From an uncultured Selenomonadaceae bacterium (GTDB lineage: Bacteria; Bacillota; Negativicutes; Selenomonadales; Selenomonadaceae): a DNA stretch of 64,000 nt. Every line of letters begins with the position of its first letter. Position 1 is the first letter of the stretch. Shown in pieces: positions 49,431-52,676 of the stretch. The stretch spans positions 35,057 through 99,056 of the forward strand of contig CAJOFR010000001.1 of NCBI GenBank assembly GCA_905234195.1, written 5' to 3'. Made by a program: the position numbers and the translations under genes. The notes beneath the pieces were generated by a model. That model had not been told where the DNA came from and did no database searches. It worked only from the letters and a program-made list of their open reading frames with translations.

Positions 49431-51398
49431 ATGATAAAAAAAAGAAAAGTTGCAATTTGTTTAACGGCAATGATCACTATGCCTCTTTTGTTCGGATTTA
49501 AATTGGAGAGTGACAAAGACTTCTCCAATTTGAAAAGTCATGCGGTCGACGATAATCAGCCTTCAGGGAGAGTTCTCGATAGACCTTTTGAGGACGTTAA
49601 TGCCGATAACAAATTAAAGGAACAAAACTCAAATGGGAATAACGCAGAAAAAAATCCCAGCGAAAATATTTTTAACAAAAGTATTTCAATGAATAACTCT
49701 CCTCAAGAATCGCAGGTTAATACGAAAATGCGCGAGTATTTGCGCCAATTTGAGGGGCTCACTATTGTTGACATAAAGCACGAGGGAGCAAGCGATTCAA
49801 CTCTTCCCACAGTCAAGGCCGCTATTATTCTTCATGTAGGCGACGAATTCAGCGCGGATGCTGCCATAAGAGATCGTGACGCTATCAGAAACACCGGTTA
49901 TTTTTACGACGCGTACCAGACTTTTGAAAAAGTCCCTGAAGGCGTTATTATAACTTATCATATGATGGAAAATCCTGTTTTGAAAAAAATTGTTATCAAT
50001 GGAAATAGTGTTATTAGTACTTCTGAACTGAACAGACTTTTGACAGTTAAACGAGGCTCTATTTTAAACAGTAATACTTTACATGATAACGTAAACGCAA
50101 TTCAAGAAAAGTATCACGGTGATGGCTATATTTTAATGAAAATCACAGATATATCTCTAGAGAACGACGGTACTTTGACTTTGAAAATAAATGAGGGCAT
50201 TCTTGAAGGTTATAAGGTTAAAGATAATAAAAAGACAAAAGATTATGTTATAACTCGTGAAATGCGACAAAAACCAGGTGAACCGTTTAACGCTAAAAAA
50301 GCAAGACGTTCCATGGAGAGAGTCTACAATCTTGGATTTTTTGAAGATGTGAATGTAAAAATGTTACCTGGGGTGGAGCCTAACGCTGTTGTTATGGAAA
50401 TTAACGTCAAGGAAAAAAGAACCGGGACGTTTGGTGTTGGCGCGGGATACAGCACGCGCGATGGACTCTTAGGCGTTGTGAGTATATCGGACACTAATTT
50501 TCGGGGAACGGGCGACGCCGTTTCTCTATCGTTCGAGAAAAATGCGGACGATAGCGACGCGCACGGATTTGCTTTTACTTATCGAAAACCTTGGCTTGAT
50601 CACCACGAAACGGCAGCTACCTTGAGGATTTATAATCGCACATACCAGTATTACGATTATGACACCGACGCTGAATTAAAAGAGCGGTACATGCGCAAGT
50701 ATTCCGGTGGTGAAATTACTTTAAGCCGTCCCATGAGTGAATATTCTACTAACTATATCACCTTGAAGAATCGTAAAGATAGGTATGTGCGGCACGTTTC
50801 CAGTGGAAAGTCCGGAGATCGTAGCGGGAGTAGCGGAGAATCTTGGCGTAACGATAATTTTGGAACGACACGCAGTATTGAGTTTCAGCATATAACCGAT
50901 ACTCGTGATAACGTTTTTAATCCGACAATTGGTGGAAAAGTTACGCTCGGCACTGAATTTGGTGGATTATTGGGGGGAGATTTTACTTTTCAGAAGTACA
51001 CGATCGACCATCAACAATATTTCAAAGCCGGTCATGCTCAAGTTTGGGCGTTTAAGACGGCTTATGGAATTGGTCATGGCGATTTGACTGAATTTAATCA
51101 GTTTAGGGTAGGCGGTCAAAATAGTCTTAGAGGCTATCGTGATGACCAATTTCGTGGCGATAGAATGATGCTTGCCGCTCTAGAATACCGATTCCCACTT
51201 GCTAGGAGGATTCAAGGTATAGTTTTCACAGATTGGGGAGGAGCTTGGGATTCGCGTTACTTGCCAAAGGGAAATGCCATTAATGGTAGTGTTGGTCTCG
51301 GTGTCGCGCTGAATACTCCTCTTGGTCCTTTGCGTTTGGATTACGGTCGTGGAAAACAAGGAGGAAGGTTCCATTTCAATATCGGAGGCGGATTTTAA
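49431..51398 (+). CDS. bamA: Omp85 family outer-membrane assembly protein (BamA/TamA-like)
   Basis: POTRA (VVDIKHEGASDSTLPTVKAAI; LKKIVINGNSVISTSELNRLL), barrel with GQNSLRGYRDDQFRGD, terminal HFNIGGGF. Confidence 0.93.
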   Translation: MIKKRKVAICLTAMITMPLLFGFKLESDKDFSNLKSHAVDDNQPSGRVLDRPFEDVNADNKLKEQNSNGNNAEKNPSENIFNKSISMNNSPQESQVNTKMREYLRQFEGLTIVDIKHEGASDSTLPTVKAAIILHVGDEFSADAAIRDRDAIRNTGYFYDAYQTFEKVPEGVIITYHMMENPVLKKIVINGNSVISTSELNRLLTVKRGSILNSNTLHDNVNAIQEKYHGDGYILMKITDISLENDGTLTLKINEGILEGYKVKDNKKTKDYVITREMRQKPGEPFNAKKARRSMERVYNLGFFEDVNVKMLPGVEPNAVVMEINVKEKRTGTFGVGAGYSTRDGLLGVVSISDTNFRGTGDAVSLSFEKNADDSDAHGFAFTYRKPWLDHHETAATLRIYNRTYQYYDYDTDAELKERYMRKYSGGEITLSRPMSEYSTNYITLKNRKDRYVRHVSSGKSGDRSGSSGESWRNDNFGTTRSIEFQHITDTRDNVFNPTIGGKVTLGTEFGGLLGGDFTFQKYTIDHQQYFKAGHAQVWAFKTAYGIGHGDLTEFNQFRVGGQNSLRGYRDDQFRGDRMMLAALEYRFPLARRIQGIVFTDWGGAWDSRYLPKGNAINGSVGLGVALNTPLGPLRLDYGRGKQGGRFHFNIGGGF

Positions 51399-51413
51399 TA
51401 GGAGTTGAATTTT

Positions 51414-52676
51414 ATGGGAAAAATTTATTCATACTTTCAGCCTAAATATGTGAGCAAGTTTAAATGCAATGGACAGGCTTGTTCTGCGCATTGTTGTAAA
51501 CGTTGGCGAATTGAAATTGATAAAAAAACTTACAAAAAATATTCTCATATTAAGCCTAAAAGTGCGGCGCGTGACATAATTCAAAATATCACAAGGGGGG
51601 GGGTAGATAATGATAAGTACTTTGTCATCCTTGACAGAAACTCTCGTTGTCCGATGTTGACAGAGGATAATTGGTGTTCAATTCAAAAAAATTATGGCGA
51701 AGATTTTTTATCTGTTGTTTGTGTGACGTATCCGCGCAGGACGTTTAATTTTGGAGATTTTTACGAACGTTCCTTAACGCTGACTTGTCCCGTAGTTGCT
51801 GCAGAAGTTTTAATTCCGAATACCCCTATAGAATTTGAGTGGACTGAAATTCCGGAAAGAATTCACAGCAATTTGGGCAGGATTAAACCGCAGTTCCCGA
51901 GCGTTCCTCAAAATTTGTGGGAGCACATTGTCGATATTCAATACATCGCAGTTTCAATATTGCAGGAACGTTCACTGACGATAGATCAACGATTGTTGAT
52001 ACTGGGAGTCTTTTTAGAAGAACTTAAAAATTTAACTTCAGACAACAAGCTTGATGAAATACAAAATTTAAAAGAAACTTATAAATCGGAAAATTTTTAA
52101 AAGGAGCAGATTGAAAGTTTCTCACAGGAAATTAAATTTAATGCAAATGAACACATGAAAATCATATTTGGAACTTTTGAATCTCTTTATGGCGGAGTTT
52201 CTTTTTTCAAAGCTGAAGATAAAAAATTTATCGATGCCGTAGTTGAAACTCTTCAGGTTCAAGTCGATGAAAACAAGCAGGTTTCTGTTAGTGCTTTAGC
52301 TAGAAAATATTATGAATTCAACGATTTTAGAAAAAATTTCACACAATATTTTTCTACTGTATTTGAAAATTACTTGGTGAATGAGTTTTTTTTAAATTTG
52401 TATCCTTGGAGATTTAAAGGGTCGATAATTTATAATTATGGAGTTTTTTTAACAATATACAAAATATTGGAATTAATAACCATGTCACTCGCGATTTCCA
52501 ATTTTAAGAAAGACAGAACAAAAACTCCACCGTTGGACAAAATAAATATGGTCGCCGCTGTAATGATGTTCGTCAACAACATTGACCATAATGACAGTTA
52601 TGTTGGAAAAATTTCTGATTATCTTAAAGGTAAAGAAAATATAGTCGAGATTGTTCAAGATTTGCTACAAATTTGA
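51414..52676 (+). pseudogene. fliB: FliB-like flagellin lysine-N-methylase, frame interrupted by in-frame TAA at 52098
   Basis: FKCNGQACSAHCCKRWRIEIDKKTYKKY; SRCPMLTEDNWCSIQKNYGEDFLSVVCVTYPR; SLTLTCP; same frame continues after TAA as KEQIESFSQEIKFNANEHMKIIFGTF... Confidence 0.8.
51595..51603 (+). repeat. Poly-G (9) homopolymer inside fliB-like gene
   Basis: ACAA-GGGGGGGGG-TAGATAATG read directly; longest G run noticed in the window. Confidence 0.95.

Follow-up and report, generated by a model that had tools for sequence, protein, structure and literature searches.

In Neisseria, homopolymer switches lie in promoter spacers, as at porA and opc. In Campylobacter, poly-G tracts lie mostly within open reading frames (ORFs), their lengths peak at nine (53%) and then ten (26%), and flagellin modifiers are the largest groups of target genes (PMC6321876). 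The genome of C. jejuni NCTC11168 holds 28-29 poly-G/C loci (PMC4965091). In the flagellin lysine methylase FliB of Salmonella, a CX4CX3CC motif holds a [4Fe-4S] cluster (PMC8598068).

Here we analyzed a G9 tract within a fliB-like gene in a 64,000-nucleotide stretch of DNA, hereafter the window (Table 1). From the sequence, we consider it highly probable that this tract is a translational contingency switch operating by slipped-strand mispairing, one of about 27 such loci in the genome. An earlier note on this DNA had placed a run of nine G in a fliB-like gene, and the position and length that it quoted were exact, the run at 51595-51603 being GGGGGGGGG. The gene assignment also stood, as both halves of the gene match the NF038110 family profile, covering positions 1-212 and 259-372 of its 373, and the 5' part does so above the curated cut-off. 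The predicted protein resembles Salmonella FliB in its membership of this family and in its N-terminal CX4CX3CC Fe-S motif (PMC8598068). It differs from Salmonella FliB in that there are several paralogs per genome here and in that a nonsense codon splits the present copy. We know of no poly-G switch in Salmonella FliB.

Table 1. Features in and around the fliB-like gene, in coordinates of the window.
Feature	Position	Strand	Basis
Omp85/BamA-like gene upstream of fliB, synteny marker	49431..51398	+	neighbor also in G004, G006, L124
AGGAG, likely ribosome-binding site of fliB	51400..51404	+	inferred from sequence, 9 nt before ATG 51414
fliB 5' part, 228 codons to in-frame TAA	51414..52100	+	NF038110, 196.1 bits, cut-off 85, 1.2e-57
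CX4CX3CC motif CNGQACSAHCC, residues 18-28	51465..51497	+	[4Fe-4S] motif of Salmonella FliB, PMC8598068
G9 homopolymer, putative slipped-strand switch, codon 62 of fliB	51595..51603	+	sequence, frame recomputation
TAG abutting tract, stop in G8 frame	51604..51606	+	frame recomputation
TAA, stop in G10 frame	51608..51610	+	frame recomputation
In-frame TAA, interrupts fliB at every tract length	52098..52100	+	homologs have I or L here
fliB 3' part, 191 codons, frame unchanged, still conserved	52101..52676	+	NF038110, 2.7e-5

To follow the consequences of slippage, we recomputed the products of fliB at different tract lengths. The gene yields 228 aa at G9, 63 at G8, 65 at G10 and 64 at both G7 and G11, which bears out the claim of the earlier note that a slip either way stops translation at once. 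Its further claim that the frame is open at G9 holds as far as residue 228 and fails beyond, at the in-frame TAA. Under the proposed mechanism, slipped-strand mispairing during replication would alter the tract by one G. Tracts of G9, and also G6 and G12, would preserve the fliB frame, and other lengths would end FliB near residue 63, past the Fe-S motif and ahead of most of the enzyme. Switching of tract length, its rate and its flagellin-methylation phenotype are what we infer; the difference in length seen at the fliB site is one between species only (G9 here, G7 in the related genome G004). Because MutL is present in the genome, a normal mismatch-repair background is likely, and we rejected a mismatch-repair defect as the cause of slippage, a point that tells against the switch reading in that no such defect would raise the slippage rate.

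The fliB tract is the sole G/C run of at least eight within the window. Dinucleotide shuffles of the window gave a mean of 0.28 8-mer matches and reached the observed two in 4 of 100. Counting G and C runs together, the genome as a whole contains six G7, three G8, 20 G9 and four G10; the 27 runs of eight to ten, 20 of which are G9, include those at loci L096-L115. The shorter runs fall off steeply in a 235-kb sample of the same genome, with 553 G4, 71 G5, 12 G6 and one G7, and no peak at nine was found among the A/T runs of the genome. Because the G/C spectrum peaks at nine and the A/T runs have no such peak, the fliB tract is not due to chance.

The larger finding is a genus-wide set of poly-G loci. 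Among 66 genomes of the genus there are 352 G7, 222 G8 and 527 G9 runs, with a maximum of 28 G9 per genome; elsewhere in the class, G9 runs number 0-7 per genome, mostly 0-3. The bacterium studied here is an uncultivated member of the Selenomonadaceae from the rumen, and its relatives, uncultured Selenomonadaceae too, come from rumen and reticulum samples of reindeer, buffalo, sheep, goat and deer. The genomes of the relatives are metagenome assemblies, as this genome probably is too, and homopolymers are error-prone, with two-color Illumina chemistry favoring false G, all of which would suit an artefact in which the tract or its length was miscalled in assembly. We find this extremely unlikely, since tracts are present in genomes from differing projects and hosts and fall at homologous codons across species, with homologous frames continuous on both sides. 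In this uncultivated rumen genus, a single genome can hold about 28 G9 loci, some coding and some in promoters, a case that can be tested in existing metagenome reads. The author of the earlier note was not aware of a description of switching flagellin methylation in a diderm Firmicute, and our limited search, confined to open-licence literature, likewise found no report of phase variation, poly-G or slipped-strand mispairing in Selenomonadaceae, Negativicutes or Selenomonas.

Full-length fliB products have about 420 residues, and the assembled G9 allele yields 228. An intact full-length frame is absent in this copy and present in G006, G074 and G049. That the assembled allele gives no full-length product at any tract length counts against the switch reading: the TAA at 52098 would leave no full-length enzyme even at G9, unless the stop is a minority variant or a consensus error. 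The 191 codons past the stop (52101-52673) show no frameshift relative to the 5' part, and the gene read through the stop scores 228 bits against NF038110. Identity to G004 and G006 is 56-61% 3' of the stop and 55-57% 5' of it. Since similarity to homologs does not drop beyond the stop, the TAA is best taken as a recent or consensus variant. The same stop, together with two further fliB-family genes that could make this copy dispensable, would also be expected if the homopolymer had arisen by chance in a decaying pseudogene, with fliB lost from the lineage and the G run neutral. This is improbable given that the genome has 20 G9 runs where about 0.1-1 would be expected by extrapolation from the fall of the shorter runs, that the gene is conserved equally well on both sides of the stop, and that a G tract occupies the same site in G004 and in-frame G9 or C9 tracts occur in other fliB-family genes.

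The earlier note had proposed comparing the tract in homologous fliB genes, and this comparison agrees with a switch. In G004, the syntenic fliB holds a G7 in the corresponding place, which leaves it out of frame, and a G9 there would restore a product of 419 aa. No G tract was found in the syntenic fliB of G006 and L124, which counts against the switch reading, and relatives lacking the tract do not keep Arg-Gly-Gly at this position. Because these orthologs do without it, the tract is dispensable for the protein. We also rejected the idea that the protein needs Arg-Gly-Gly, as homologs show other residues and varying loop lengths there. In a fliB-family gene of G074 (L259), a G9 lies within the CX4C motif, where it encodes CFGGGC in frame; the products are 407 aa at G9, 58 at G8 and 35 at G10. 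Similarly, a fliB-family gene of G049 (L211) has an in-frame C9 near codon 157, with products of 411 aa at C9, 173 at C8 and 177 at C10. The best reading of these comparisons is that fliB is a recurrent tract target, and we claim no enrichment of tracts in fliB genes, for which a rough estimate gives about 0.5 expected in some 120 genes, inspected in part. The genome-wide poly-G set, the out-of-frame ortholog in G004 and the G9 and C9 tracts in two more species all accord with the contingency-type layout that the earlier note had seen in a diderm Firmicute.

Which other genes carry tracts? The glycosyltransferases among them in this genome comprise GT2, GT8 (x2), GT9 (x2), GT11+2, GT61 and GT92. 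Alongside these are three FkbM methyltransferases, one GDP-fucose-synthase-like epimerase, hexapeptide acetyltransferases (with profile scores below cut-off), a 1275-aa RTX-repeat protein and a 1031-aa clostripain-type (C11 protease) protein. Our frame table lists about 11 in-frame and about six out-of-frame coding tracts for the genome. Tandem GT8 paralogs at L115:6258-8616, about 89-95% identical over aligned stretches, carry C8 and C10 and are both out of frame; by our frame arithmetic, a C9 would bring each of them into frame. In GT92 genes of three species (L111, L160 and L163), poly-G lies at one shared position and is out of frame in 3/3. Because the frame downstream of the GT92 tract is still homologous in all three although out of frame, selection is preserving a currently unread frame, as expected of a reversible switch. 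A set of about 27 poly-G/C loci, mostly in surface-glycan modifiers or surface proteins, adhesin-like ones included, would generate many surface variants per clone, and the varied traits would include flagellar methylation by the FliB copy studied here.

These loci are best read as a set of slippage switches of the Campylobacter kind, carried by a Negativicute of the rumen. Like the Campylobacter phasome as surveyed with PhasomeIt (PMC6321876), it has a similar number of loci, a peak at G9, mostly intra-ORF tracts, surface-glycan and flagellin modifiers as targets, and OFF states in the sequenced genome. The differences are that the lineage is unrelated (Negativicutes, of the rumen), that C-sense coding tracts are seemingly commoner here (several of the 27, versus 5% in Campylobacter), that the flanks follow a species-specific motif, and that a lysine methylase takes the place that glycan genes, maf and cj1295 among them, have as flagellar targets in Campylobacter. 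Flagellin lysine methylation thereby joins the list of traits predicted to switch.

The fliB tract, lying inside an ORF, is of the translational type. Tracts of the genus also occur in promoters: read along the G strand, 10 of 86 fall in the spacer of a strong -35/-10 box pair, where dinucleotide shuffles give 0.15, and along the C strand none of the 86 does. TTGACA occurs at most 22 bases upstream of 13 of the 86 tracts, versus 0.56 expected. Candidate transcriptional switches, which are G9 tracts with TTGACA-like and TATAAT-like flanks ahead of ORFs, are L158, L159, L161, L174, L179, L180, L182, L091, L094 and L097. Large ORFs often begin 38-70 bases beyond the promoter tracts; GT2 genes are among them, as are one gene for a clostripain-type and one for an RTX-repeat protein. 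Three species share one promoter tract, in each case ahead of a homologous gene (L097 in this genome, L182 in G004 and L161 in G006). Tracts of both kinds, transcriptional and translational, thus appear to be in use in the genus. In their placement between the -35 and -10 boxes, the ten tracts resemble the promoter-spacer switches of Neisseria; unlike these, the fliB tract is in an ORF, and in this genome only L097 is clearly a spacer tract.

A further point counting against the switch reading is that the bases flanking the tracts are non-random, which slippage alone does not account for. TA directly follows the tract on its 3' side in 50 of 84 cases, versus 4.3% after G3-G5 runs, and AAC directly precedes it in 21 of 84, versus 2.5%. 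The consensus is roughly AAC-G9-TAG in this genome and T-G8-YGTAG in G024, where T stands at -1 in 18/18 tracts and YGTAG comes after; in G049 the tracts are preceded by AA and followed by TA, and in G002 they are preceded by CCxA and likewise followed by TA. Such a consensus is common to mostly different gene families, in mixed frames and on both strands (L189-L248 included). As the tract genes span many families, we mostly rejected paralogy as the source of the shared flanks.

Part of the 3' flank can be related to stop codons and promoters. TAG lies directly 3' of 11 of the 27 tracts of this genome (p ~1e-8 versus G4 runs), and in G-sense genes it cleanly ends translation after a slip in one of the two directions; in G004 and G006, the TA after the tract starts many -10 boxes. 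We rejected selection for an immediate TAG as the whole cause of the 3' flank, as TAG is also found in the C-strand genes L099, L105 and L108, and as G002 often has TAYG, which is not a stop. Neither the TAG stop nor the -10 box accounts for the 5' flank or for the C-strand genes. In C. jejuni, flanks were reported to be without influence on slippage in a PCR assay (PMC4965091).

Tract and flanks together might form a motif recognized in DNA or RNA, as the site of a binding protein or the target of a mutator, and the homopolymer would then belong to that motif and be more than a slippage site. The species-specific consensus over unrelated genes in both orientations, with its TA and AAC excesses, is what such a motif would produce, as is the invariant T at -1 in G024 across mostly different families and mixed frames. 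Even so, we hold this to be very unlikely: lengths range from eight to ten with frames both open and closed, the classes of tract genes are those expected of slippage switches, and the immediate TAG stop and the TATAAT -10 box explain the consensus in part. It is conceivable, if rather doubtful, that a sequence-directed process seeds or maintains the tracts of the genus, with a flank motif particular to each species. If true, contingency tracts would be installed at recognized sites and not by random slippage plus selection; should the flank motif hold, it raises the question of how the tracts come about.

Finally, the earlier note had predicted ON/OFF switching of flagellin methylation. The layout of the switch agrees with this prediction; against it, the assembled allele is not ON at G9, owing to the TAA, and the genome holds two more fliB-family genes, three with this copy. 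Because of these two, loss of this copy need not abolish flagellin methylation, and its effect may be partial. The copy lies outside any flagellar cluster and is preceded by TamB and Omp85 genes. The genome (G000) has six Flagellin_N matches as putative substrates. On its contigs C4, C9, C10 and C14, flagellin-domain frames of about 740-1090 aa are far longer than usual flagellins, and one such long frame, on C14, has two tract genes (GT9 and FkbM) at a distance of about 6 kb.
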